Both the position numbers and the translations under genes were made by a program. From contig NZ_CP042425.1 of the NCBI RefSeq assembly GCF_008254045.1, forward strand, positions 2,728,001-2,792,000: a stretch of DNA of 64,000 nucleotides, written 5' to 3'. Positions 11,594 through 63,740 of this stretch are shown here, piece after piece. This DNA is from Limnoglobus roseus (GTDB taxonomy: Bacteria; Planctomycetota; Planctomycetia; Gemmatales; Gemmataceae). Below the pieces are notes generated by a model that saw nothing but the letters and a program-made list of their open reading frames with translations, did no database searches and was not told the origin of the DNA. Each line of letters begins with the position of its first letter. Positions within the stretch are counted from its first letter, which is position 1.

Positions 11594-12808
11594 ATGCCAC
11601 CATCGCAGACCCCTTCCTTGTTGCGCGACGGCATCACCGCCGCCCAGGCGGGTAACAAGGTTCGGGCACGGTTCGTCATCCGGCAGGTCGTCGGACTCGA
11701 ACCCGAAAACGAAATCGCTTGGCTGTGGCTGGCGAACGTCGCCGCCGACCCGGTGGAAGCTCTGTCGTGCCTGCGCACGGTCCTGAAACTCAACCCGGAC
11801 AACCACCACGCCAAGACCGGCCTCACGACGGCCGTCGTCCGCACTGCGATTGATGCTGCCCACCGGAAGGACTTCCCGACCGCCCGGCAGTTGCTCCGCG
11901 AAGCCCTCGACATCGACCCGGACAACGAGCACGCCCTCCTCTGGATGGCCGGCGTTTCGACCTACCCGAGCGATTCGATCCGCTACCTCCGCCGCGTGCT
12001 GGAGATCAACCCGAACAACGAGCGGGCGAAACAGGGCCTCGCGCAGTACCCGGTCCAGGCGGCGTGGACCTGCCCGCTGTGCGAATCGCCGGGCCGCGAA
12101 CCGGTGCCCCGCTGCTCGCACTGCAACGCCGTCGTCGTGCTGGACAGCCCGACGGCCTTCGACACGCCGACGGGGGCGGACGAAACACTGATGGGCCGGG
12201 CCATCGCCCGGTTGTCGCCGCGGGCACAGTCGGCCCCCGGCAGTGCCGACGCTTTCTGCCTGGGGTTGGCCTACCTGAACATCGGTCGGCCGGCTGAGGC
12301 GATCAAGATTTTCAACGCCGCGGCCACCCGGGCGGACGCCGACGCGAACTGGAAGGCCCAGGTTCACAAGCTCGCGGCCCACTGGCGGACCGCCCCGGCC
12401 CACCGGCCGACGAAGCCGGACGCCCCGGAAGGGCCGCCGCTGGTGTTGGTCGTGGACGACAGCGCCACCGTGCGGAAACTCGTGACCGTGGCCCTGCAAG
12501 GGGCCGACTACCGTGTCGTCAGCCTCGCCGACGGCTTGCAGGTGGCGGAAGCCCTTCAAACGCACGGTGTCCCCGCCCTCGCGATTCTCGACATCATCAT
12601 GCCGGGGATGGACGGCTTCCAGGTCTGCACTCTCTTGCGGGAGAACCCCGCCACGGCGAAGGTGCCGGTGATCTTCCTGACGGGCAAGGACGGCTTCTTC
12701 AACAAGCTCCGCGGCAAGTGGGCCGGGGCGGCCGAGTACCTGACGAAGCCGTTCCAGCCGAAGGCCCTCGTCGAAGTCGTCGGCAAGGTTCTTGCGGCGA
12801 AGAAGTGA
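11594..12808 (+). CDS. TPR - zinc ribbon - response regulator receiver protein
   Basis: The 404-residue protein has TPR-like helical repeats (about 1-155, with LEPENEIAWLWLANV-type repeats), then a four-cysteine zinc ribbon (CPLC...CSHC, about 159-177), more helices, and a C-terminal CheY-like receiver from about residue 281. The receiver has the acidic pair in VVDDS, the phospho-acceptor Asp near 332 (ILDIIMPGMDG), the conserved Thr/Lys region FLTGKDG and YLTKPF. The start was placed at the ATG giving MPPSQTPSLLRDG, which aligns with the paralogue at 22490 (SLLRDG at the same place). No output domain is present, so signalling probably works through protein contacts. No kinase gene is adjacent. 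Confidence 0.88.
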   Translation: MPPSQTPSLLRDGITAAQAGNKVRARFVIRQVVGLEPENEIAWLWLANVAADPVEALSCLRTVLKLNPDNHHAKTGLTTAVVRTAIDAAHRKDFPTARQLLREALDIDPDNEHALLWMAGVSTYPSDSIRYLRRVLEINPNNERAKQGLAQYPVQAAWTCPLCESPGREPVPRCSHCNAVVVLDSPTAFDTPTGADETLMGRAIARLSPRAQSAPGSADAFCLGLAYLNIGRPAEAIKIFNAAATRADADANWKAQVHKLAAHWRTAPAHRPTKPDAPEGPPLVLVVDDSATVRKLVTVALQGADYRVVSLADGLQVAEALQTHGVPALAILDIIMPGMDGFQVCTLLRENPATAKVPVIFLTGKDGFFNKLRGKWAGAAEYLTKPFQPKALVEVVGKVLAAKK

Positions 12809-22489: not shown

Positions 22490-23731
22490 ATGGCACCAGT
22501 CGAAACCGTTTCCCTGCTCCGAGATGGCATCGCAGCCGCGCGAGCAGGGGACAAAGCCCGGACCCGGACGTTGCTACGGCAGGTCACGGAGTTGGAGCCG
22601 AACAACGAACTCGCGTGGCTCTGGCTGGCGAACACCGCCGAAGACCCGCGCGAATCGCTGGCGTGCCTCCGCCGCGTGATGGAAGTGAACCCCGGCAACG
22701 AGTACGCGGCCGCCGGCCTGCCGGACGCGCTGTGCCGGGCCGGCGTCGTCGCGGCGAAGGCGAACGAGCGGATGCAGGCGAAGATTTGGTTCGCCGAGGC
22801 GACCGATCTCGCCCCGCGGAACGAAACCGCGTGGCTGTGGCGGGCCGGCCTCGCGGACACGGCCGAGGAAGGCGTCGAACTCTTGCAGTTCGTCCTCGCG
22901 ATCAACCCGGCCAACGAACGGGCCAAGCAGGGCCTCGCCCACTACCAGGCGCAGATGGCCCCACGGTTCGCGTGCCCGCTGTGCGACTTCCAGGGCGAGC
23001 CGGGGAAGAACCCGCACGCCTGCCCGCGGTGCCGGTCGGTCGTCAGCATCGAGAACCCGGCCGCGTTCGACGCGCCGACCGGGGCCGACCGCCGCATGCT
23101 GGAAACAGCCGCCCACAAGATTTACGCCGACCTCCAGGCCGACCCGAGTTCGATGAACGCCTACAAGCTCGGCCTGTCGTACCTGAACCTCGGGTACATC
23201 GACGAGGGGATCAAGGCGCTGCAAACGGCGATCAAGGCCCGCCCGGCCGACGCCGCGTGGCGGAACCAGGTGAACCGCTTTGTCAAGCACCGCGAGGCGG
23301 TCCGCAAGACCGCCGACGAGGAGCGCCGGCGGCTCATCCCCGCTTCCAAGCCGACGATCATGATCGTGGATGACAGCCCGACGATTCGCAAACTCGTGTC
23401 GGTCACGCTCGGCACGGTCGGGTATCAGGTCGTCGAGGCGGCCGACGGGTACGAGGTGGCCGAGCGCATCCGCCAACAGGGCGCGCCGCAGTTGTTCCTG
23501 CTCGACATCAACATGCCGGGGCTGGACGGCTATCAGTTGTGCAAGATGCTCCGCCAGAACGCGGAAACGTCGAAGGTGCCGATCATCTTCCTGACGGGCA
23601 AGGACGGGTTCCTCAACAAGCTCCGCGGCCAGTGGGCGGGGGCGGTCGAGTACCTGACCAAGCCGTTCGACCCGCAGAAGCTGCTGGCCGCCGTCGGGAA
23701 GATCGTGCCGCTCCAGAAGGCCCCCGCGTAA
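22490..23731 (+). CDS. TPR - zinc ribbon - response regulator receiver protein (first gene of signalling cluster)
   Basis: The 413-residue protein is a close paralogue of the one at 11594. It has N-terminal TPR-like repeats (LEPNNELAWLWLANT and similar), a zinc ribbon (CPLC...CPRC, about 162-182), a further TPR block and a receiver from about residue 287. The receiver has VDDSPT, the phospho-acceptor in LLDINMPGLDG, FLTGKDG and YLTKPFDPQK. It stands first in a same-strand set with an unknown protein, a CheY-like receiver and a CheW fusion, which implies a role in that pathway. The start matches the paralogue's SLLRDG position. No DNA-binding or enzymatic output domain is present. Confidence 0.9.
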   Translation: MAPVETVSLLRDGIAAARAGDKARTRTLLRQVTELEPNNELAWLWLANTAEDPRESLACLRRVMEVNPGNEYAAAGLPDALCRAGVVAAKANERMQAKIWFAEATDLAPRNETAWLWRAGLADTAEEGVELLQFVLAINPANERAKQGLAHYQAQMAPRFACPLCDFQGEPGKNPHACPRCRSVVSIENPAAFDAPTGADRRMLETAAHKIYADLQADPSSMNAYKLGLSYLNLGYIDEGIKALQTAIKARPADAAWRNQVNRFVKHREAVRKTADEERRRLIPASKPTIMIVDDSPTIRKLVSVTLGTVGYQVVEAADGYEVAERIRQQGAPQLFLLDINMPGLDGYQLCKMLRQNAETSKVPIIFLTGKDGFLNKLRGQWAGAVEYLTKPFDPQKLLAAVGKIVPLQKAPA

Positions 23732-23748
23732 CCCGGCGAGACTCCGTC

Positions 23749-24393
23749 ATGGCCCGCCCCGACGACGACGACGCCCGGCTCAGCCTGTTCGGCCCCGGGG
23801 CGGTTACGAAGTTGCCCGGGGCGCTCACGAGCAGCGACGCGGCGGACGAGAGGCCGGATTCGAAGACCGTCTGGGACGGCGACAGCGTGGACGACCCCGG
23901 CGACGTGGAGTTCGACCGCACCTGGAACGTGTTGCTGGTGCAGTTGCTCGGCCGCCTGGAGTTCGGCCGGTCGTCGCTGGAAAACCCGGCCCACCAGCGG
24001 AACCCGGGAGGCGCAGTGAAGATCGCCGCGGCGATGGTGAACGAAGTCGCGGACTTCATCGCGACGCACGTGGACCCGGTGAAGTACGCCCGCCCGATTG
24101 CCGATGCCCTGGCCGCGGCCGGGCGGTTCCTGACGACCGCACAGGTGGCCTCGGCCGCCCCGCCGAAGCGCAGCGGCTTCCTCGGCTTCTTCGCGAAGGC
24201 AGAGCCGACGAGCACGGTGCAAGAGTGCCAGTGGGTGCTGCGCGACCTGACGCTGGTGCTGGAAAAATACTTCGTCCTGCTCGGCAGTTGCTTCCGCAGT
24301 CAGACGCCCACCCTGGCGTGGATGGACACGAGCGGCGTGTTCGTCGGCGAACTGAAGCGGGCGCTGAGTTGGTTCGAGGCGATGCCGCAGTGA
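23749..24393 (+). CDS. Unknown alpha-helical protein of signalling cluster, 214 residues
   Basis: I do not recognise this family. The first 60 residues are acidic and probably disordered (DDDDARLSLFG). The rest looks alpha-helical, with WNVLLVQLLGRLEFG, VNEVADFIATHVDPVKYARPI and a C-terminal helix around VLEKYFVLLGSCF. There is no signal peptide or long membrane segment. The gene starts 17 bases after the TPR-receiver gene and is followed, after a palindrome, by the CheY-like gene, so co-expression with a chemosensory-type pathway is likely. A helical partner of a receiver, or an Hpt-like protein, would fit the position, but no Hpt His motif is evident. Confidence 0.75.
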   Translation: MARPDDDDARLSLFGPGAVTKLPGALTSSDAADERPDSKTVWDGDSVDDPGDVEFDRTWNVLLVQLLGRLEFGRSSLENPAHQRNPGGAVKIAAAMVNEVADFIATHVDPVKYARPIADALAAAGRFLTTAQVASAAPPKRSGFLGFFAKAEPTSTVQECQWVLRDLTLVLEKYFVLLGSCFRSQTPTLAWMDTSGVFVGELKRALSWFEAMPQ

Positions 24394-24395
24394 AC

Positions 24396-24472
24396 GGCGA
24401 GCGGGGGGCGTTAGCCCCCTGATTCTCGCGAAACATTCAACCAGAATCAGGGGCTGACGCCGCCCGCTCGTC
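24396..24472. repeat. Compound palindrome inside the signalling cluster (family copy 3)
   Basis: Arms beginning GGCGAGCGGGGGGCGTTAG and ending GACGCCGCCCGCTCGTC pair over roughly 30 bases with a few mismatches. The left arm has its own GGGGG/CCCCC stem. Unlike the other copies, it lies between two genes reading the same way. Confidence 0.8.
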
Positions 24473-24501
24473 CCCAACGAGACACCCAGAGTACCCGTGC
24501 C

Positions 24502-24867
24502 ATGCCGAAAGATACGATCCTCGTCGTCGATGATAGCCCGACCGAACAGCGGTTGGTCGCCGCCGCACTGAGCTTGCAAGGTTATCGCGTCATCACGGCC
24601 GCCGACGGCGAGGAGGCGATCGAGAAGGCCGCCAAGGAACTGCCGCGGCTCATCGTCCTCGACGTGGTGATGCCCAAGAAGAACGGCTTCCAGGTCTGCC
24701 GGCAACTGAAGACGACGGCCGCCACGCAGAACATCAAGGTGCTATTGCTGACGAGCAAGAGCCAGGATAGTGACAAGTTCTGGGGCATGAAGCAAGGGGC
24801 CGACGCCTACATGACGAAGCCGTTCACCGACGGCGACCTGGTCGCGAACATCACGAAGTTGATCTGA
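24502..24867 (+). CDS. Stand-alone CheY-like response regulator receiver
   Basis: The 121-residue protein is a single receiver domain. It has the acidic pair Asp10-Asp11, the phospho-acceptor Asp54 in VLDVVMPKKNG, the Thr/Ser position in LLLTSKSQ and the conserved Lys in MTKPFTD. It most resembles PilG/PilH-type receivers of twitching pathways and CheY, and has no output domain. It is followed 19 bases later by the CheW-fusion gene. A separate histidine kinase must phosphorylate it; none is in the window. Confidence 0.93.
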   Translation: MPKDTILVVDDSPTEQRLVAAALSLQGYRVITAADGEEAIEKAAKELPRLIVLDVVMPKKNGFQVCRQLKTTAATQNIKVLLLTSKSQDSDKFWGMKQGADAYMTKPFTDGDLVANITKLI

Positions 24868-24886
24868 CGACACCCGAGGTTGTGAC

Positions 24887-27004
24887 ATGACTGACGGCGA
24901 TGATGCCACCGTCCCGCCGTTCCCGTTCGGCGACCTGCCGCCGCTGCCGGACGCGGTCGGCGAGGGGGACCAATTTCCCGCCGCCGCGGCCGACGAACTG
25001 CCGTCGTGGCTGGCGATGGGCGGTTTCCCGCTGCCGGACCTGACCCCCGCCCCCGACCCACTGCCGGAACCCCTGCCCGAGCCGCCGGTGTCGGTGGCGT
25101 CGATCCCGTACTGGCCGAACATGGGACTGGACGAATCGTCGGACGACGTGAACGCGGTGATGTTCCGGCCGCGCCGCCCGCGGGCCGACGACACCCTCTC
25201 CGACTCCCGGCCGGACGAAATCGAGTTCCCGGTCAACCCGTCTACCGTCGATCAAGTTTCCCCGACCGAGCGGATGCCGACCGACGCCCCGGAGCAACCC
25301 CGGCCGGTCGAGGACGATGACGACGACCTGCCGTTGCCGCCGCCGTTCAGCGCCCGGCTCAGCGAGTTCTCGCCGTTCATGCTGCCGAAGCCGGACCCGG
25401 AACCTCTGCCGCCGGAAGAATCGCCCGCGCTGACGCGCACGCCGCCGCCGGCCGCACAACTCGACATCCCGCCGGTGTCCGCGATCTGGCGGACCCGCCG
25501 TGTGTCCATCATGCCGCGGCTGGAAGACGAGGACACCGTGTCCGTGTTCCGCATTGTCGTCCGCGACGAGGCGGGCCGCGGCTACCCGAACTGCAAGGTC
25601 ACGTTCCAACTCCCGGCCGGGCTGAAGCAGGTGCAGGCGAGCCGCAAACCGTCGGCGAAGCGCGGCACCCTGCACTGGCACCTCGGCCCGCTCGGCCCCG
25701 ACGACGCCGTGCCGCTGTCGGTCAAACTACCGGTCGCGCTCATCGGCCCGGAACTGGCCGTCACGCCGCGGATCTTCGAAGTCGCGTATCAACCGCTCCC
25801 CGGCGCGCGACTCGTGGGCGAGTTGGCCTCGCCGAGCGTGGTTTCGGTCGATCAACCGTTCACGATCACCCTCCGGGTTTCCAACGTCGGCGAACTCCCG
25901 ACGAGCGACGTGACGCTGCGCGTCCTCGACCGCTCGCACGGCGGGCCGCCGGTGCTCGTCGAAGCGCCGCCGATCGCACCGGGCGACGCGGTCACGCTGA
26001 CGGCGGAACTCGAAGCGAAGGCCGCCGGCCGGCACGACTGGATCGCGACGGTCGAATCGTCCGGCAGCGAGTCGTCCGAGTCGATCTTCGCCACCGAGGC
26101 CGTCGGCACGAAGCTCGCCGTCGAGTTGAAGCACGAGTCAATGATGCGGGTGGACGACGAGCAAGAGGTCACGCTCGTTATCACCAACTCTTCGCCGATC
26201 CCGGTCCGCGGCGTGACCGCGATGCTGACGATGCCGGAGGAACTGACGTTCGCGTCGGCCCCCGGCGGCGAGTTCGACCGGGCACTGAACCTCATCGGCT
26301 GGCTCGTCGGTGACCTGGCCCCGAACGAGTCGCGGGCCGTCGCCGCTCGCCTCCGTGGTTTCGCCCCCGGCCTCGTCGCCATCCAGGCCCGCGCCGAGGC
26401 GATGACCGGCGCGGCCGTCGTGACCACGTCGAACCTCTTCGTGGAAGTCGATGCCCGCTCGACCAGTTCGACGCTCGACAAACTACTGGCCGCGATTCAG
26501 GACGCCATCCCCGACGACGACGAACCGGAAGTCGTCCGCGAGCGGGTGCCCGAAGTCGGTTCGCGGTACGTCGTGTTCGAACTGGGCCACACGCCGTACG
26601 CGGTGCGGATCGAAAACGTCCGCGAGGTGGTCCGCTCGACGAAGATCACGCCGGTCCCGGGCATGCCCGACTGGCTGCCCGGTGTGGCGAACGTCCGCGG
26701 TGACATCCTCTCGCTGGTCGACTTGCCGCGTTTCCTGAACGTGGACGACGGCGAGTCCCCCCGCCGCGGCGTGCTGGTGGCGCAGTCTGATGACGGCCAA
26801 CTCGTGATCGGCCTGCTCGTGAACACGGTCGTCGGCATCCGTCGTCTACCCCCGTCGCGGCCGTTGGAACACGACCTCCTCGGCGACGGTTCGCTGGCGG
26901 AATACCTCGACGGCGTCGCAGAACTGAACGGCAAACTCGTTCCGATCCTGGACCTGAACGCACTGTTCACGTCGTCCGAGTTGAACGCCTTCCAAATGTC
27001 GTAA
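24887..27004 (+). CDS. Large protein with Ig-like (DUF11/CARDB-type) repeats and C-terminal CheW domain
   Basis: The 705-residue protein has three parts. Residues 1-195 are proline- and acid-rich and probably disordered. About 195-535 hold beta-sandwich repeats of the DUF11/CARDB type, with phrases such as PFTITLRVSNVGELPTSDVTLRV and EQEVTLVITNSSPIPVRGV. About 555-700 form a CheW domain (YVVFELGHTPYAVRIENVREVV, LPGVANVRGDILSLVDL, final GKLVPILDLNALF). CheW normally links receptors to CheA in the cytoplasm. DUF11/CARDB repeats are usually extracellular, yet no signal peptide or membrane segment is visible here, so this protein appears wholly cytoplasmic. It is the last gene of the cluster and is followed by a perfect 26-base-pair hairpin. 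Confidence 0.88.
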   Translation: MTDGDDATVPPFPFGDLPPLPDAVGEGDQFPAAAADELPSWLAMGGFPLPDLTPAPDPLPEPLPEPPVSVASIPYWPNMGLDESSDDVNAVMFRPRRPRADDTLSDSRPDEIEFPVNPSTVDQVSPTERMPTDAPEQPRPVEDDDDDLPLPPPFSARLSEFSPFMLPKPDPEPLPPEESPALTRTPPPAAQLDIPPVSAIWRTRRVSIMPRLEDEDTVSVFRIVVRDEAGRGYPNCKVTFQLPAGLKQVQASRKPSAKRGTLHWHLGPLGPDDAVPLSVKLPVALIGPELAVTPRIFEVAYQPLPGARLVGELASPSVVSVDQPFTITLRVSNVGELPTSDVTLRVLDRSHGGPPVLVEAPPIAPGDAVTLTAELEAKAAGRHDWIATVESSGSESSESIFATEAVGTKLAVELKHESMMRVDDEQEVTLVITNSSPIPVRGVTAMLTMPEELTFASAPGGEFDRALNLIGWLVGDLAPNESRAVAARLRGFAPGLVAIQARAEAMTGAAVVTTSNLFVEVDARSTSSTLDKLLAAIQDAIPDDDEPEVVRERVPEVGSRYVVFELGHTPYAVRIENVREVVRSTKITPVPGMPDWLPGVANVRGDILSLVDLPRFLNVDDGESPRRGVLVAQSDDGQLVIGLLVNTVVGIRRLPPSRPLEHDLLGDGSLAEYLDGVAELNGKLVPILDLNALFTSSELNAFQMS

Positions 27005-55555: not shown

Positions 55556-56527
55556 TTATTGCGGGGTCAGCGAGGGACGTTCGAACACTTCCGCCAGGCC
55601 GGCGAAGACCACCGCCCGAGTCGTGGCCACGCTGGCGTGGATCGGCTTGATTGCCGACTGCAACTCGACGGTCAGTTGGCCCGCGGTTTCGTCGTTGACG
55701 CTGACGGCCCGGTAGAAGCTGATCCGCGTCGGGGTGAGCGGCGTCGTCGGCGACGTGGACGTGTCTGCCGTGCCGGCCGTCGTCAGCATGACCCAGCGGC
55801 CCTTGCCCAGCAGCGGCCGCGGCTGGGTTTGGTCGTAGGGAATGACCAGGCTCGTGCCGCCCACGGAATAGGAGAGGTTCCCCGTCACGTTCGGGTAGGC
55901 CACTTCCGCGTTCGCCGGCGAGAACCCGGCCGCCCGCCCGTCGAACACCAGGACCGTCAGGTCGGCCACGTTCGGGTTCGTGCTGACCGGCCGTTGCAGG
56001 ACGGCCGACCAGTTGTACCGCCCCGCCCGTTCGACCGGCCCGGTCCCGCCGGTCATCACCGGCGCACCGCCCTGGTCAAAGGTCATGTCGTCCAGCAGCG
56101 TGCAGAACCGGTACGCCCGGGCGAAGTTGGGCGTCACCGAGAGCGTTTGCCGGGTCAGAGTGAACGGGGTGGCGCCGGTCGCCGACAGGCTGGCCACATT
56201 GCTCGGGGCCGCACTTTGCTGGCCGATTGGGTCGATGAAGACCGGGTCGCTGGGGTTGTTCGCATACGTGCCGAACGAATTGATAAAGGCATCCTGGCTC
56301 CCGGCCGGCTGCTCGACGACGTTCGTCTGCCAGTGCGTCCGCATCAGCGACTCGCTGTTGATGGCCGTGTCGGCACACCGCGAGTCTTTCAGCGCCTGGC
56401 CCATCTGGAGCGCACCGAGCGGGAAGAGGGCGAGCAGCGAAATCATCGCCAGGGCCGCGACGAACATCGCCACGAGGCTTTCAACCAGGGTGATCCCGCG
56501 GCGGGGCCGCGGCGTCGGCGTCATCAT
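55556..56527 (-). CDS. GspI/PilV-like pseudopilin
   Basis: The 323-residue protein has a leader with RRGITLVESLVAMFVAALAM, matching the GspI/PilV consensus in which Glu follows TLVE, and then LLALFPLGALQMGQALKDSRC. The remainder is beta-rich. It is longer than typical GspI (about 120-130 residues), consistent with the enlarged pseudopilins of this operon. It starts with two consecutive ATGs and has no strong ribosome site. It lies 23 bases from the GspJ-like gene, implying co-translation. Confidence 0.87.
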   Translation of the reverse strand: MMTPTPRPRRGITLVESLVAMFVAALAMISLLALFPLGALQMGQALKDSRCADTAINSESLMRTHWQTNVVEQPAGSQDAFINSFGTYANNPSDPVFIDPIGQQSAAPSNVASLSATGATPFTLTRQTLSVTPNFARAYRFCTLLDDMTFDQGGAPVMTGGTGPVERAGRYNWSAVLQRPVSTNPNVADLTVLVFDGRAAGFSPANAEVAYPNVTGNLSYSVGGTSLVIPYDQTQPRPLLGKGRWVMLTTAGTADTSTSPTTPLTPTRISFYRAVSVNDETAGQLTVELQSAIKPIHASVATTRAVVFAGLAEVFERPSLTPQ

Positions 56528-56693
56528 GGGTCGTTCCCCGGTGGGGGTCTCGTGGCGAATCGACGGTGCGAGCCGCCGGGTGCGTGCGTCCGTGACGTGA
56601 AGCGAGTCGTCCCGGCCGGCCTCTCCATTCTTCGCGGCCGGCCGGCCGATTCCAAAAAACGCGAACTACTAAAAAATCCAGCCTTCCGCGGGC

Positions 56694-57899
56694 CTACAGC
56701 CCGGTGTTGAGGCCGTCCTTCGCGAACTGGAACGGGTCGAAGTTCGGCGGCAGCGCGGGTGGCGGCGGGTTGATCGGCTGCGTCGAGATCGCCCCCGTCT
56801 TCGGGTAAGCGCACACGAGGATGATCTGCCCGGCCGCCGCCACGTCGGACGCGACCCGCGGGTTGATCCCACTCGGGGGGACGTTCGGAAGGTTCGAGTC
56901 TCGCATGAGGAGGGCCATCACGCCGTCGGCGATACCGACCATTTCCCCGGACGGGGCGAACAGGATATCACGGTTGCCGTTCGCGTCTGCGACCGGGGCG
57001 TTCAGGCTCGCGCTCAAATCGACGGCCATGCCGTTCGGCAAGAGCTGCGTCGGCTCGCCCAGCAACGGCCGTGGCCGGCGGAAGACGGCGAACTTCGTAG
57101 TCTGATAGGCTGGTGCGATAACTGCTGGTGGTCCCGCCTGCGTCTGCGAAAAGCCTGCGCCAAAACGGCTTCCTAACTCTGTTGAAATTGGCGAAGGTGG
57201 GGAAGGAAGAGGTGCGGGAGCCCCTAACTCCAATTCCACCACCGTATTGATCGACCATGTGACGGTTGGAGTTGTCGCATTTGGCCACATCACCGTACTG
57301 GAATTTTGTGGCGCGGGATTGTCAGTATTTCCAAGACGGAAACTAGGGTCAGGATTGGCGCTTGAGTTCGAATTCCCGCCAACCCAAATTTTAGCGATCG
57401 TGTAGGCTTGGCCCACTTCTGGCAAGTAAAGGGTATCTCCAGCCTGGATGTTGCCTGTCGGGTCCGGGATGTTAATCAAGAACACGCGGGTTTCAATCCC
57501 CGGATTCGTCGTCGATGGGTTCACCGCACCGGCTGGCGGTGGCGATTGTGTGACAATTCGTTGTATGATCAGCCGGGCCGAGGACGCGGTGATCGTCACA
57601 TTCGGCGTCGGAATCCACGGGTCGGGTTGCTCGATGTAAGCGATTTCCTTGACCAAGTTTGGGTTGGCCGGGTCGGTCAGCAGGCGGATGCCGCGCGGGG
57701 CCTTGTCGCGGAGCGCACGGTTTTTGGCCGAGAGCATCCACTGACTGAGCCGGTCGGCGGACCCGACGATCTTGTACGACTCGAACGCGCTCGACTGCGA
57801 CACGGCGATGGCCAAGCTCAGCAGGACGATGCCCAGGGCGATGGCGACGAGCAGTTCGACGAGCGTGAAGCCGCGGCGGGCTTGCGAATGGAGCATCAT
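56694..57899 (-). CDS. GspH/FimT-like pseudopilin
   Basis: The 401-residue protein carries a prepilin leader (RRGFTLVELLVAIALGIVLL) and a GspH/FimT-like helix region (ADRLSQWMLSAKNRALRDK). A long beta-rich domain follows and the end is proline-rich (NPPPPALPPNFDPFQF). The centre (about 57110-57640) is noticeably lower in GC than the flanks. The start ATG overlaps the upstream gene's stop by four bases, with GAGGTGA in front. A 166-base gap to the GspI-like gene holds no recognisable ORF. Confidence 0.88.
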   Translation of the reverse strand: MMLHSQARRGFTLVELLVAIALGIVLLSLAIAVSQSSAFESYKIVGSADRLSQWMLSAKNRALRDKAPRGIRLLTDPANPNLVKEIAYIEQPDPWIPTPNVTITASSARLIIQRIVTQSPPPAGAVNPSTTNPGIETRVFLINIPDPTGNIQAGDTLYLPEVGQAYTIAKIWVGGNSNSSANPDPSFRLGNTDNPAPQNSSTVMWPNATTPTVTWSINTVVELELGAPAPLPSPPSPISTELGSRFGAGFSQTQAGPPAVIAPAYQTTKFAVFRRPRPLLGEPTQLLPNGMAVDLSASLNAPVADANGNRDILFAPSGEMVGIADGVMALLMRDSNLPNVPPSGINPRVASDVAAAGQIILVCAYPKTGAISTQPINPPPPALPPNFDPFQFAKDGLNTGL

Positions 57900-58819
57900 T
57901 GGTCACCTCGTGCGCCCTGGCGGCGGAGTTTGTAGCCGCAGGTGAAGCCATCGGGGATGAGGGTCAGGTCCGAAGGCGCGGCCGCCAGCGTGCCCCAATC
58001 CGGACTGTTCGTGCGTGAGACGATGGTCGGCAGCCAGTTCTGGCCGCCGAACGACGTTCGCCCTGTCGCAGTGAACGCCACACCCGACGTCAACCCGGTC
58101 AACCGGCCGGCTGGGTCGAAGGGATCGTTGTTGGTCGAGTTGGCATTTTTGATGAACGGTGGGGCGTTCAGTTCGCCATTGCCTGAACTCATGCGAATAA
58201 AGGTAATCGGGTTGCCGAACGAGTCGGTGAAGACCCGTTGGCCGGCAGTGTTGTCGCGAGGGAGCAGGGCCGACAGGGCGCCGATGGCTTCCTCGTTGAA
58301 GGTTTGGCCGCGGCTCCCCTTCTGCGTCATGATCCGGTAGAGGATCACCGCCGCCTCGTCCCCCGTGTTGCCCGGTGTGGCCACCGGCGTGAAGGCAGGA
58401 CTGACGAACATGGGCGACGGCGGCAGCGTGACTAGCGTAGGTGTCGATTGAAGCGTTATCCCATTCTGGGCCTGAGTGAAGTTCTGTGGGAAGGCCCGCT
58501 TCATCCAGACGTACGTCCAGAGGGCCAACGCCCGGTCTTGGTCGTTGGCCGCCAAGGTCTTCACGGCGTCCACCTGGGCAGAGAAACCGGACTTCGTGCC
58601 CTTGAACGCATCGCGGGCGTCGTCCAACTCCGCCTTCCAGAGGGACTGGAACCCGGACTCAAGTTTCGAGACCGTGTCTTCCGTGGCCTTCACCTGCTGG
58701 CCCGCGCGGATGCGGAAGTACGCCCCGGTGCTGAGGGCGGCCAGCACCGCGAGCAGGGCCACGACCACCAGCAGTTCGATCAACGTGAAGCCGGCAGGCC
58801 GGCGGTTCGTCGCGTGCAT
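57896..58819 (-). CDS. GspG-like pseudopilin (second copy)
   Basis: The 307-residue protein has the leader [21 protein letters not shown] and a Glu at position 5 of the mature protein, as in major pseudopilins. The N-terminal helix is followed by an alpha-helical stretch (TVSKLESGFQSLWKAELDD) and a beta-rich C-terminus with an NPITF-like phrase typical of GspG. The start has AGGAGAG seven bases upstream. The ATG/stop overlap at its 3' end couples it to the GspH-like gene. Together with the next gene it gives the operon two G-type subunits. Confidence 0.87.
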   Translation of the reverse strand: MHATNRRPAGFTLIELLVVVALLAVLAALSTGAYFRIRAGQQVKATEDTVSKLESGFQSLWKAELDDARDAFKGTKSGFSAQVDAVKTLAANDQDRALALWTYVWMKRAFPQNFTQAQNGITLQSTPTLVTLPPSPMFVSPAFTPVATPGNTGDEAAVILYRIMTQKGSRGQTFNEEAIGALSALLPRDNTAGQRVFTDSFGNPITFIRMSSGNGELNAPPFIKNANSTNNDPFDPAGRLTGLTSGVAFTATGRTSFGGQNWLPTIVSRTNSPDWGTLAAAPSDLTLIPDGFTCGYKLRRQGARGDQ

Positions 58820-58835
58820 GAGAGGCTCTCCTGGC

Positions 58836-60032
58836 TCAGTCCGTGACCGACAGAGCACCGCTTCGGAAGTTCGAGTAATCATCACCACCGGCGTCCTTGG
58901 TCGTGTAGCCGGACGTCTTACCGAACATGACTTGTCCGCCCGGGCCGAAGCCCCACGGCGTGGCACCAACGTCGGACCCGTTAAACCCGCCGGAGATGAG
59001 TTGGTAGCCCGTGTTGTTAACCCACTTGTTGGCCGACTCGCGGAAGGCGGTCGGACCCATCTTGGCCGGGGCCGTACTTGCGTTGAAGTTCGAAACCGCC
59101 CCGCCCCACGGGCCGATGACCAGTTCCGTGCCGGCCACGGTGTCCTTGAACGGGTAGTCGCTGACGCTCCCAATGCCGCTGGTGGACATGTACAGGTACG
59201 GTGTTTTCCACGGGTCGAGATACCATTTCTCTTCCACACCCACCGTGGTCAGCGTGTCCGTCCCCCCCGTCCAACGGATCGGCGTGGCGGCCGTGAACCC
59301 GGCCGGTGCGGGGGACAGGGCCGCGATATCCGACCCGTGGTCCTTCCCCAGCCACACCGAAGGTGCCTTGAGTCGATCGGACTTGAAATCGAAGAATGCT
59401 GCAATGCGTTGCCCGTTCGGGCTAGTGGCCGTCGCCGCGAAGGGTTGGGTGGGGCTGGTCGAAAACCCGAGGAACTCCATGTTGACGCCGCCGCTCAGGA
59501 AGAACACCAAGCATTGGTTTGGGTCGAGCAGTAGTGGGTTGCTCGGCAGGAGGCCGTCCGTCTGGAGGTTGTTGGAGTCGCCAGTCATATCCGGCGGCCC
59601 GACGGCCACGGCGTTCTTACGGAGTCCGTTGTCCAGCAGGTTCATCCGGGGCCACATGGCCTTCAGGGCGACGATCTCGGGCGAGTTCGCGGTGAAGCCG
59701 GGGGCGAACGTAATGTTCCCCATCATGTCCCGAATTTGGTAGGCCGAACACAGCCGGAACGTCCCGCTCAGGACCGTCGTGCCGTTGAACGGTGCCCCCT
59801 GTCCACTACAGGGCACGTTGCGGCCGAACTTCGCCTTAAACTGACCGAGGGCCGTGTCCAGACCGGTGATGTCGGCCCGCAGCTTCGCTTCTTCCCCCTT
59901 GCGGCGGATCGGCCCTATCGCGGCGAGAACCAAGCCGACGAGGACGGCGATGATCGTGACGACCACCAGAATTTCGATCAGCGTGAAGCCGCCGCGGCGG
60001 GACGATCGCTGCGGGGTGAGTGTCCGCAACAT
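58836..60032 (-). CDS. GspG-like pseudopilin (first copy)
   Basis: The 398-residue protein has a prepilin leader (RRGGFTLIEILVVVTIIAVL) and the GspG-like KGEEAKLRADITGLDTALGQFKAKFGR stretch. The C-terminal WKTPYLYM and VIGPWGG phrases recall the GspG core (WGNPYQY...). The second of two ATGs was chosen because AGGAG is eight bases from it and only two from the first. About 150-residue GspG proteins are the norm, so this one also carries a large insert. It is the first pseudopilin after gspF and is likely the main subunit. Confidence 0.88.
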   Translation of the reverse strand: MLRTLTPQRSSRRGGFTLIEILVVVTIIAVLVGLVLAAIGPIRRKGEEAKLRADITGLDTALGQFKAKFGRNVPCSGQGAPFNGTTVLSGTFRLCSAYQIRDMMGNITFAPGFTANSPEIVALKAMWPRMNLLDNGLRKNAVAVGPPDMTGDSNNLQTDGLLPSNPLLLDPNQCLVFFLSGGVNMEFLGFSTSPTQPFAATATSPNGQRIAAFFDFKSDRLKAPSVWLGKDHGSDIAALSPAPAGFTAATPIRWTGGTDTLTTVGVEEKWYLDPWKTPYLYMSTSGIGSVSDYPFKDTVAGTELVIGPWGGAVSNFNASTAPAKMGPTAFRESANKWVNNTGYQLISGGFNGSDVGATPWGFGPGGQVMFGKTSGYTTKDAGGDDYSNFRSGALSVTD

Positions 60033-60095
60033 GGTCATTCTCCTGAGTGCAAGGACCGCCCGCGGAGGTCGTCCGCGGGCGTGAGAGTGTCTCGA

Positions 60096-61337
60096 CTATT
60101 TCGACAGGCCTTCCAGCAGCTTAATCAGCGGCAGGAACAGCGAGATGACGATCGCCCCGATGATGCCCCCGAGGAACACGATCATGATCGGCTCGAGCAG
60201 CGAGATCAGCGACTTCACCAGCGTGTCCACTTCTTCGTCGTAGAAGTCGGCCACCTTGTAGAGCATCGTGTCCAAGTCGCCGGTTTCCTCGCCGACCTCG
60301 ACCATGTTCACGACCATGTCGTCCACCAGCCGGCTTTCCCGCAGCGGGTCAGCAATCGTATCCCCTTCGCGGATGGATTCCAAAACCCGCTGGAACATCC
60401 GCTCGAAGACGAGGTTGTTGGCCGTGTCCTTGACGATGGCCAGGGCTTCGAGGATCGGCACGCCGGAACTGATGAGCGTGCCGAGCGTCCGCATCGTTCT
60501 CGCGACGATGGATTTCTCCGCGAGGCTCCCGACGATCGGTATCCAGAGCGTCATCCGGTCGAGGGCGTAGTTGCCCGCTTTCGTCATGCGGATGAGTTTT
60601 ATCAGGAGGTACACGCCGAGCGGGAACAGCGGGATGACGTACCAGTAGCTCGCCACCCAGTCGGACACGTCGATGAGGATCTTCGTCGGCGCGGGAAGCG
60701 ACAGGCCGAACTCCTCGAAGATCTTTTTGAACTTCGGGATGATCGACACCATGATGAACGTCAAGATGCCGACGGCGACGCAGATAACGACGCTCGGGTA
60801 CACCATCGCCCCGACGATCTTCCGCTTCAGGGTCTGCGACTTTTCTTTGAACTCGGCGAGGCGCTGGAGAATGACTTCGAGGGCACCGCCGGCCTCGCCG
60901 GCCTTCACCATGTTCACGTACAGCCGGTCGAAGCACTTGGGGTGTCGGCCGAGGGCTTCCGACAGGGTCGAGCCGGACTCGACGTCTTCCACCACGTCGA
61001 TGAGCGAGTTCCGCAGGGCGCTCGGCTTCATCTGCTTTTCGAGAATCCGCAGCGACCGGAGCACCGGCAGGCCGGCGTCCTGTAGCGTGCTGAACTGCCG
61101 GGTGAAGATGCAGAGCATCTTCTGCGACACGCCGCCGAGGACGAAGGTCTTGCGGCTCTTGCCGCCCTTCTTTTTCTTCCCCTTGCTGCCCTTCTTTTCC
61201 TGCGCGGCGGTGAGCTTCGTGACGAAGTAGCCCATCGCCTTGATCTTCTGCGAGGCTTCTTCTTCGTTCCCGGCATCGACCGAGTCCTTGACCTCCTGGC
61301 CAGACGTGTCGAGCGCTTCGAATTTATAAGTCGGCAT
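60096..61337 (-). CDS. gspF: Type II secretion/type IV pilus inner-membrane platform protein
   Basis: The 413-residue protein has the T2SSF layout: two homologous cytoplasmic helical domains (about 70-190 and 280-395) and three membrane segments (about 175-200, 225-250 and 385-408). Conserved phrases include FTRQFSTLQDAGLPVLRSLRIL, VKAGEAGGALEVIL and VNMVEVGEETGDLD. It anchors the ATPase to the pseudopilus. A Lys-rich insert (GSKGKKKKGGKSRK) lies near residue 50-65. The ATG has GAGGA at four bases; it follows gspE across a compound palindrome. Confidence 0.95.
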   Translation of the reverse strand: MPTYKFEALDTSGQEVKDSVDAGNEEEASQKIKAMGYFVTKLTAAQEKKGSKGKKKKGGKSRKTFVLGGVSQKMLCIFTRQFSTLQDAGLPVLRSLRILEKQMKPSALRNSLIDVVEDVESGSTLSEALGRHPKCFDRLYVNMVKAGEAGGALEVILQRLAEFKEKSQTLKRKIVGAMVYPSVVICVAVGILTFIMVSIIPKFKKIFEEFGLSLPAPTKILIDVSDWVASYWYVIPLFPLGVYLLIKLIRMTKAGNYALDRMTLWIPIVGSLAEKSIVARTMRTLGTLISSGVPILEALAIVKDTANNLVFERMFQRVLESIREGDTIADPLRESRLVDDMVVNMVEVGEETGDLDTMLYKVADFYDEEVDTLVKSLISLLEPIMIVFLGGIIGAIVISLFLPLIKLLEGLSK

Positions 61338-61391
61338 GGTGTCCTCTGTGTGAAACTGACCGCGCCCGGGTGTGCCTCGCGGTCGGCGACC

Positions 61392-61465
61392 GGCGAGCGT
61401 CGCGGCGTAAGCGCGACGTGCCTTCCTGGGGCCGGACACGTCGCGCTTACGCCGCGACGCTCGCC
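61392..61465. repeat. Compound palindrome between gspE and gspF (family copy 4)
   Basis: The arm GGCGAGCGTCGCGGCGTAAG continues to GCGCGACGTG and is matched by its exact complement ending at 61465. Inner stems GTCGCG/CGCGAC flank GCGTAA. It lies within an operon, so it could modulate expression of downstream genes relative to gspE. Confidence 0.85.
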
Positions 61466-61472
61466 TTGTCCG

Positions 61473-63740
61473 TTAGTCGTCCACGATCGTTTCCCGCACG
61501 ACCTCTTCCAGCGTCGTCGAGCCGATGCACAGGGCGTCGATGCCGGCCTCGCGGAGGCCCTTGATGCCGATCTTGCGGGTGTACGCCCGGATCTGGTCGT
61601 TCGACGCCCCGCGGCTGATCATGTCGCGGATGTCGTCGTTAATCAGCATCAACTCGTACAACCCCGTCCGGCCCTTGAAGCCGAGGTTGTTGCACTTGTC
61701 GCAGCCCTCGCCGTAGTAGAACTTCTGGCCCTTCAATTGCTCCGGTGTGGTGTTCAGTTCCATCAACTGGTCGCGGGTCGGCTCGTAAGCTGTTTTGCAG
61801 TTCGGGCACACCCGCCGCACCAACCGCTGCGCCTGGATGGCTTCCAGCGTTGCGGTGATGAGGAACGGCTCGACGCCCATGTCCCGCAGGCGGGTGATCG
61901 ACGACGGGGCGTCGTTCGTGTGCAGCGTGCTGAACACCAAGTGCCCCGTGAGCGACGCCTGAATGGAAATCTGGGCCGTTTCCAGGTCGCGGACTTCCCC
62001 GATGAGGATCACGTCCGGGTCTTGCCGCAGGATGGCCCGCAGGGCGGCGGCGAACGTCAGGTCGATCTCGTGGTTGATCGGGCACTGCACGAGGCCGTCG
62101 ATTTCGTACTCGACCGGGTCTTCCGTGGTGATGATCTTCGTCTCGATGTCGTTCAACTCGGACAGGGCCGAATAGAGCGTTGTCGTCTTGCCGGACCCGG
62201 TCGGCCCCGTCACGAGACAAATGCCGTTCGGCTTCTTGATGACCTCCCGGAAGTCAGCGAGGAGTTGCGGCGGCATGCCGATGCGGTCGAGCGACAGGCC
62301 GACGTTCGACTGGTCGAGCACTCGGATGACGACACTCTCGCCGAACAGAGTGGGCAACACGCTGACCCGCATGTCGATCCGGCTGGCCCCGAGGTTCAGT
62401 TCGATCCGCCCGTCCTGCGGCAGCCGGCGCTCGGCGATGTCGAGGTTCGCCATGACCTTGATCCGGCTGGAAATGGCCGTGGCCAGGTGGCGGGGCGGCG
62501 GGACCATCTCGTACAGCACGCCGTCGCACTTGTACCGCATCTTGTACTCGTCTTCGAACGGCTCGAAGTGGACGTCCGAGGCGTGGTCGCGGATGGCCAT
62601 GAGCATCACCATGTTGATGAGCTTCCGCACCGGGGCGGAGTGGGCCATTTCCTCGACGCTGTTCAGGTCGATGCTCGTTTCCCGCTTGCCGACGGCCTTG
62701 TTCAGGTCGGCGTCCCCTTCGATTTCCTTGAGGATGCTCGCGATCGACTCCTCGTCGGCCCCGCCGGCCCCGGCCCCGCCGGCCCCGGTCGAGTACGCCT
62801 TGTTCATCAGGTCGTCGACGGCCTTCGGCGGCGCGAGGACGGCCTTCACGTCGGCGATGCCGAGGAAGTTGCGGATGTCGTCGAGGGCTTGCAGGTTGTT
62901 CGGGTCGGACATCGCCACGGTCAGGACGTTGTTCTCGAACGTCAGCGGCACGACCTTGTACAACTCCGCCATCGTGTGCGGAACCTTGGCCGTGGCGTCC
63001 TTACTCGGCTTCACGTCGTCCAGGCTCTGCACCTTCATGCCGTGCAGTTCGGCCTGGGCTTGCAAGAGCTGGTCTTCGTTGACGAGGCCCCGCTCGGCGA
63101 CGAGCTCGGTCAGTTTGCTCTCACTGGTCCGCATCTCCTCGTAGATCGAATCGAGTTGCGCGTCGTCGAGGAACCCGAGGTCCACGAGCTTCTGGCCGAG
63201 TTGCTTCGTGTTCGAGTCGACGTGCGTCAGCGACTTCTTCTGCGGCTTCGGCGCGGGCTTCGGGGCCGGGGCGGCGGCGGGCTTGGGTCCGCCGGGCGTC
63301 GGTCCGGCGGCCGGGCGGGGTGCGCCCGGTACCGGCGGCTTGGCACCGCCCGCGGCGGCGGGGGCTTGCGGCCGGGGCGCACCCGGTGCGCCGGGCGTGG
63401 TTGGTCTCGCACCGGGAACGCCCGGCGTTGTCGGCCGGGGTGCGGGGGCTGTTCCGCCGGCCGGGGGGGCGGGCTTGGGCGCAGGTGCGACCGGCTTCTG
63501 TGCGGCAGCGCCGGGCGTACCGGGGGCCGGCGCGGGTTTGGGCGCGGGGGCGACCGGGCGTTGTGCGCCGGCGGGGGCTTGGCCCGATGTTGCGGGCCGT
63601 TGTTGCGGGGGCTGCCCCGGTGTAGCCGGCTTCGCGCCGTTGGCCTGCGGCGGCACGGCTGGCTTCGCCCCGGCCGCCGGCTGCGTACCGGGGGCCACCG
63701 GCTTCTTCGGGTCGTTCGGGAGTGGCGGAGTCGTCGACAT
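61473..63740 (-). CDS. gspE: Type II secretion/type IV pilus assembly ATPase
   Basis: The 755-residue ATPase has an N-terminal proline-, alanine-rich low-complexity region of about 175 residues (atypical). A GspE_N/MshEN-like domain follows (about 180-330, with LGQKLVDLGFLDDAQLDSI), then the AAA+ motor. Walker A is GPTGSGKT with Lys518, followed by the Asp box, Walker B (DPDVILIGEVRDLETA) and the His box (SLTGHLVFSTLHTNDA). A tetracysteine zinc element CPNC...CDKC lies near 640-690. It powers pseudopilus assembly from the cytoplasm. It is the first complete gene of the operon. Confidence 0.95.
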   Translation of the reverse strand: MSTTPPLPNDPKKPVAPGTQPAAGAKPAVPPQANGAKPATPGQPPQQRPATSGQAPAGAQRPVAPAPKPAPAPGTPGAAAQKPVAPAPKPAPPAGGTAPAPRPTTPGVPGARPTTPGAPGAPRPQAPAAAGGAKPPVPGAPRPAAGPTPGGPKPAAAPAPKPAPKPQKKSLTHVDSNTKQLGQKLVDLGFLDDAQLDSIYEEMRTSESKLTELVAERGLVNEDQLLQAQAELHGMKVQSLDDVKPSKDATAKVPHTMAELYKVVPLTFENNVLTVAMSDPNNLQALDDIRNFLGIADVKAVLAPPKAVDDLMNKAYSTGAGGAGAGGADEESIASILKEIEGDADLNKAVGKRETSIDLNSVEEMAHSAPVRKLINMVMLMAIRDHASDVHFEPFEDEYKMRYKCDGVLYEMVPPPRHLATAISSRIKVMANLDIAERRLPQDGRIELNLGASRIDMRVSVLPTLFGESVVIRVLDQSNVGLSLDRIGMPPQLLADFREVIKKPNGICLVTGPTGSGKTTTLYSALSELNDIETKIITTEDPVEYEIDGLVQCPINHEIDLTFAAALRAILRQDPDVILIGEVRDLETAQISIQASLTGHLVFSTLHTNDAPSSITRLRDMGVEPFLITATLEAIQAQRLVRRVCPNCKTAYEPTRDQLMELNTTPEQLKGQKFYYGEGCDKCNNLGFKGRTGLYELMLINDDIRDMISRGASNDQIRAYTRKIGIKGLREAGIDALCIGSTTLEEVVRETIVDD

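Follow-up and report, generated by a model that had tools for sequence, protein, structure and literature searches.

The question raised by this locus is to which chemosensory system two receiver proteins and a CheW protein belong when neither a kinase nor a receptor is encoded beside them. The window, which is the whole stretch of 64,000 nucleotides analysed here, lies on the 9.38-Mb chromosome of Limnoglobus roseus (G000; family Gemmataceae) and contains four genes, named A, B, C and D, all on the + strand, with codon usage favouring all four and intergenic gaps of 17 (A-B), 108 (B-C) and 19 (C-D) bases. No CheA, receptor or other che gene was found among the genes called around A-B-C-D, in agreement with the first-pass annotation, which had described receivers without CheA or receptor at this cluster. 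The features are given below, with tree supports as bootstrap/SH-aLRT.

11618-12808, +, A2, a paralogue of A with TPR, zinc ribbon and receiver (alignment and relatives)
22490-23731, +, gene A, TPR-zinc ribbon-receiver protein of 413 aa, PilG-type in the receiver tree at 87/87 (Pfam; alignment with relatives)
22973-23032, +, zinc ribbon of A (C162-C181), with four cysteines (C162, C165, C178, C181)
23357-23695, +, receiver domain of A, residues 290-402 (Response_reg, 93.3 bits)
23749-24393, +, gene B, predicted five-helix bundle of 214 aa, ATG at 23749 (structure model; A-B adjacency in relatives)
24394-24475, no strand assigned, dispersed palindromic element between B and C (hairpin z-score -7.0)
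24502-24867, +, gene C, lone receiver of 121 aa, PilH-type (Response_reg, 89.5 bits; tree with PilH, 92/95)
24887-27004, +, gene D, Ig-armed CheW adaptor of 705 aa, PilI-type (Pfam; AlphaFold model; CheW tree with PilI, 92/98)
24998-25012, +, LPSWL motif within the disordered arm of D, at residues 38-42 (P39 and W41 unchanged across 10/10 D proteins)
25487-26446, +, three Ig-like (DUF11/CARDB-type) domains of D, about residues 201-520 (DUF11 match; three beta-sandwiches)
26561-26986, +, CheW domain of D, residues 559-700 (CheW, 104.8 bits; fold and sequence match to solved CheW)

Domain make-up of the four proteins

The domain make-up proposed earlier for the four same-strand genes was recovered by Pfam, which showed the receivers, TPR, DUF11 and CheW. 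Membrane segments were searched for at a hydropathy threshold of 1.6 and found in none of the four proteins. Because the four cysteines of A are invariant in an alignment of eight sequences, its zinc ribbon is credible. The protein that had been called unfamiliar and helical is B, which gave no match in Pfam and NCBIfam searches; AlphaFold predicted a confident five-helix bundle with pLDDT >90 in the helices, and the comparison of this model with the PDB gave no usable match (best E 0.43). A structure match of B to the PilJ domain at E 1.3 was discarded. The paralogue A2 is directly followed by a paralogue of B, B2, in G001 and G002, and B2 lies apart from A2 in the window genome, at 1.898 Mb (L055:7803-8405). 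Pairs of A and B were also seen in several genomes with no che genes in view, which suggests that the two act together, and the conserved adjacency points to B as a putative partner of A.

A typical CheW consists of the coupling domain alone, at about 150 residues. In D, the CheW domain scored 104.8 bits in Pfam (cut-off 23.5) and DUF11 scored 45.3 bits (cut-off 24.6), and the CheW fold matched solved CheW structures with a TM-score on target of 0.80-0.85 as well as in sequence, so that the concern that the CheW region might be a false match was removed. The AlphaFold model has disorder at residues 1-198, beta-sandwiches with pLDDT of about 80-95 at about 201-302, 308-406 and 410-520, and the CheW fold at 559-700. 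Of the two repeat types named earlier, DUF11 and CARDB, the latter stayed below the cut-off in the window protein (14.1 against 22.7) and rose above it in the G470 orthologue (36.6). The fold matches of the tandem beta-sandwiches include cytoplasmic components of the ciliary central apparatus and transglutaminase-type proteins, and such matches show the fold and not the partner of D. The signal peptide or membrane anchor expected of extracellular DUF11/CARDB surface proteins is absent in D, as had been noticed, the hydropathy maximum being 1.50 against the threshold of 1.6; no segment of four D orthologues exceeded this threshold either (maximum 1.59). The motif [LMA]P[DSEN]W[LM] is kept in all ten Ig-arm D proteins within a stretch that is otherwise hard to align, and it was found in the first 100 residues of 1 in about 400 other called proteins. 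No relevant paper was found in the literature on CheW fused to CARDB, DUF11 or Ig-like domains. Across one bacterial family, CheW is here extended inside the cell by a long arm that combines three Ig-like domains with an invariant short motif, and both the B family and this peptide motif are now named for testing.

LPEWL was also seen near the N-terminus of a 1348-residue protein (L055:213-4259; G000:C1:1890212-1894258) encoded about 3.5 kb upstream of B2. This protein is apparently mostly disordered with a weak C-terminal TPR match, and it is possibly another bearer of the D motif.

Gene order in relatives and the distant kinase locus

G001 and G002, which are close relatives, share the A-B-C-D order, as do genomes of other genera. 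Genes at the fetched loci were predicted by a small program based on codon usage, and the starts of some orthologues are approximate. In G009, G453, G456, G459 and G470, all Gemmataceae, A-B-C-D is contiguous with a receptor and a receiver-bearing CheA, which is the conserved order with a kinase nearby that the first-pass annotation had named as support for a system; the refuting outcome named there, a lack of synteny in every relative, did not occur. A double-CheW protein comes next in the first four of these genomes, a CheB gene closes the stretch fetched from G470, and CheR and/or CheB are missing from the order in all five. In Pseudomonas aeruginosa, the gene order of the Pil-Chp system, which belongs to the Tfp (type IV pilus) class that steers such pili, is pilGHIJK-chpABC. 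This order is matched in G448, with A-C-D-receptor-CheR-CheA-CheB-double CheW and without B, and across a contig break in G021, where A-B-C-D-receptor runs up to the contig end and CheR-CheA-CheB-double CheW is found on another contig. Since B is present in 15 of the 95 Gemmataceae genomes and the operon-type CheA (E below 1e-160) in ten, the system is patchy in this family.

Related operons were found in three genomes of other planctomycete families (G049, G629 and G642). Their TPR-receiver proteins are without the four-cysteine zinc ribbon, and their CheW slot is occupied by a plain CheW of 203-206 residues in G629 and G642 and by a protein with TPR repeats, a long disordered stretch and CheW, without Ig-like domains, in G049 (L065:5805-8762). 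B is present in two of the three (G049 and G642). A phylum-wide search for B that returned this genome and three weak matches only had suggested a family-specific protein, and the idea was dropped because a profile search put B in the same slot at the G049 and G642 loci. Both the TPR-receiver fusion and B occur in other planctomycete families and are therefore older, and the arm of D with its Ig-like domains seems to have been added in Gemmataceae, judged from the plain or TPR-linked CheW that takes its place elsewhere.

The window genome itself encodes a receptor, a CheA (958 residues; G000:C1:692874-695747) and a double-CheW protein at G000:C1:691926-697185, orthologous to those of the operons, and the suggestion of a modular pathway wired to a distant kinase was thus supported. 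With A-B-C-D at 2.75 Mb and this kinase half at 0.69 Mb, the two are about two million bases apart. No receiver gene or single-CheW gene of its own was found at the 0.69-Mb locus, which makes the two halves complementary. In its conserved part, the receptor shares 71% identity with the one encoded after D in G021, and the same split was seen in G001 and G002. The operon-type CheA contains two Hpt domains, H-kinase_dim, HATPase_c, CheW and a C-terminal Response_reg, with no match to P2. Furthermore, 12-15 residues separate the two membrane segments of the receptor in G000, G001 and G002 (12 in the window genome) as against about 285-303 residues in the operons of other Gemmataceae. The short receptor loop and the split loci together indicate that the window genus lost both an extracytoplasmic sensor of about 300 residues and the unity of the operon; in this system the receptor can be retained even after its sensor is lost. 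The first-pass annotation had noted neither this loss nor the Pil-Chp type of the system. Two other receptors of this lineage have much larger extracytoplasmic parts, with about 690 (L216:8395-11862) and 370 residues (L218:9544-12048) separating the membrane segments, and such varied extracytoplasmic parts indicate that the receptor sensor changes freely.

Five further CheA loci were seen in G000 besides the one at 0.69 Mb, and a separate che cluster adjoins a flagellin-like gene (L060; G000:C1:798000-816000).

Kinship with the Pil-Chp system

Gammaproteobacterial reference loci (L192, L195, L196, L198 and L201) were fetched through their CheW, and their Pil-Chp genes were named from gene order and domains. 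These loci contain receivers, CheW and a large multi-Hpt CheA, with PilJ-like receptors in L192 and L201, the PilJ-domain match of the L192 receptor being sub-threshold. In the receiver tree, A grouped with PilG (87/87), C with PilH (92/95) and the CheA receiver with that of ChpA (97/95). In the CheW tree, D grouped with PilI (92/98), in a clade that also takes in another CheW of the same genome (own_L061b), and the second CheW of the double-CheW protein grouped with ChpC (88/87). The receptors formed a clade with two gammaproteobacterial PilJ-type receptors (88/84), to which the identity is 46% and 36%, compared with <=32% for other receptors of the same genome. The link of the CheA kinase core to ChpA is weak (80/77). 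The PilJ N-terminal sensor domain (PF13675) had no match in the G021 receptor or in that of the window genome, which weighs little on descent because receptor sensors vary freely. A CheA with several Hpt domains, no P2 and a C-terminal receiver is found mostly in the ACF and Tfp classes (PMC10782961).

The tree supports are moderate singly. Because several parts agree and the order is that of the Pil-Chp genes, the assignment is likely, and the sequence comparisons make A the likely counterpart of PilG, C of PilH, D of PilI, the receptor of PilJ, CheA of ChpA and the double-CheW protein of ChpC. We consider it probable that A-B-C-D, read as pilG-B-pilH-pilI, makes up the front half of a system of the Pil-Chp kind (Tfp class) working by the mechanism proposed below. 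The system would be a lineage-specific variant of Pil-Chp, for which we infer both the control of a pilus and the role of the arm. It is of a known kind by descent, and what is unusual is the Ig-armed adaptor, the family-less helical protein B and the sensor-less receptor. A pilus-type chemosensory system is thus placed in planctomycetes, and a narrow literature search found no paper describing one there.

The P. aeruginosa Pil-Chp system likewise has two receivers, a CheW linker, a receptor, CheR, a multi-Hpt CheA-receiver, CheB and a second CheW linker (PMC12632253). It differs in that the PilG-type receiver is here fused to TPR and a zinc ribbon, the PilI-type CheW carries an arm of about 560 residues, B is an extra protein, two Hpt domains were found in CheA compared with nine Xpt domains in ChpA, and the window genus has two split loci and a sensor-less receptor. 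Partner proteins place the PilG output receiver in the P. aeruginosa cell through the polar PilG-FimL-FimV hub (PMC12632253, PMC10519157), whereas the TPR repeats here are within the receiver protein A itself and its neighbour is a different helical protein, B. The cluster differs also from its cyanobacterial likeness, its first receiver having TPR and a zinc ribbon and its CheW having Ig-like domains. The cyanobacterial PilG-PilH-PilI-PilJ-PilL clusters comprise a receiver with an extra N-terminal module, a lone receiver, CheW, a receptor and a hybrid CheA.

Proposed mechanism, output and alternative explanations

In the mechanism that we propose, the 0.69-Mb receptor and the ChpA-type CheA would assemble into arrays, coupled by the double-CheW protein and by D with its CheW end, for which the two linkers PilI and ChpC serve as the model (PMC12632253). 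Phosphate from the two Hpt domains of CheA would reach the receiver of A, as output, and that of C, as antagonist or sink, after the antagonism of the PilG and PilH receivers (PMC10519157). On the model of ParP (PMC5706961), the arm of D, with its disordered stretch and Ig-like domains, may act as a tether between the array and a partner in the cytoplasm, with LPxWL as the probable contact, and the TPR/zinc-ribbon part of A together with B would hand the output to its target, most likely, by kinship, the type IV pilus motor. If the arm does position or gate the array, it would join ParP as a second natural solution to the problem of connecting chemosensory arrays with the architecture of the cell.

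Candidate target genes lie in the window at 55556-63185, where the genes pilB (T2SSE with MshEN) and pilC (T2SSF) were found together with three for proteins whose N-termini carry methylation motifs, and pilT follows just past the window (G000:C1:2792001-2793023); the cluster is of type IV pilus or type II-like kind. Its pilB and pilT are about 34-37 kb downstream of A-B-C-D. Since pilT is above the cut-off in 87 of the 95 Gemmataceae genomes and the operon is found in about ten, their co-occurrence does not show pilus control. As pilT is thus near-universal, and the operon and the best pilT are on different contigs or far apart in relatives, the nearness to pilus genes is not strong evidence either.

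This bears on a reading that we hold possible but doubtful, that the system is of the same lineage with an output other than a pilus, such as pseudopilus-like secretion, second messengers, development or envelope processes. ACF-class systems control such non-pilus functions. A pilus gene was seen inside the operon in none of the relatives, the occurrence of pilT does not follow that of the operon, A as the output protein has TPR and a zinc ribbon in place of a known pilus-binding part, and hybrid CheAs with two Hpt domains are known from both the ACF and the Tfp class (PMC10782961). However, five independent parts group with their Pil-Chp counterparts and not with the other che proteins of the genome, and the order matches. 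That D is mainly a positioning factor for arrays of any receptor, flagellar ones included, with A-C serving other kinases, is an unlikely explanation suggested by the several other CheA and receptor loci of the genome and by ParP of Vibrio, which has, as D has, an N-terminal interaction region, a proline-rich disordered linker and a C-terminal CheW-like domain (PMC5706961). ParP has not been described with Ig-like domains, and its CheW-like domain is nearest to CheA P5 (PMC5706961), whereas that of D is nearest to PilI; in the CheW tree, which was built without a ParP sequence, P5 formed a separate clade away from D. An assignment of D as ParP was rejected on this grouping with PilI, and D also directly precedes its own receptor and CheA in other genera.

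The split operon and the lost receptor sensor could also mean that the system is decaying in the window genus, a loss of function that we regard as quite improbable. Each of the three species in which the locus was located shows both, and B and D were not found in a fourth, whose assembly is fragmented. Against decay, all the genes are open, the receiver and Hpt motifs are present, and identity between species of the genus is 80% for A, 54% for D and 72-73% for CheA. A speculative view of the same changes, unlikely when taken as a whole, is that the window genus moved sensory input from the lost outer domain of the receptor to the arm of D and kept the receptor as a lattice only. The Ig-like domains and LPxWL would then bind an internal partner (pilus machinery, envelope or a cytoskeletal scaffold) and the kinase would be switched on the sensor-less receptor lattice; if true, this would be a chemosensory array reading its signal through a coupling protein. 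The Pil-Chp assignment, which we prefer, takes the arm as a tether.

The palindromic element between B and C is dispersed in the genome. With arms like GGGGGCTGACGCCCCCCGCTC, 33 arm matches were found in G000 compared with 0 in a reversed-pattern control, and elsewhere in this genome two arms are often paired, about 50 bases apart.
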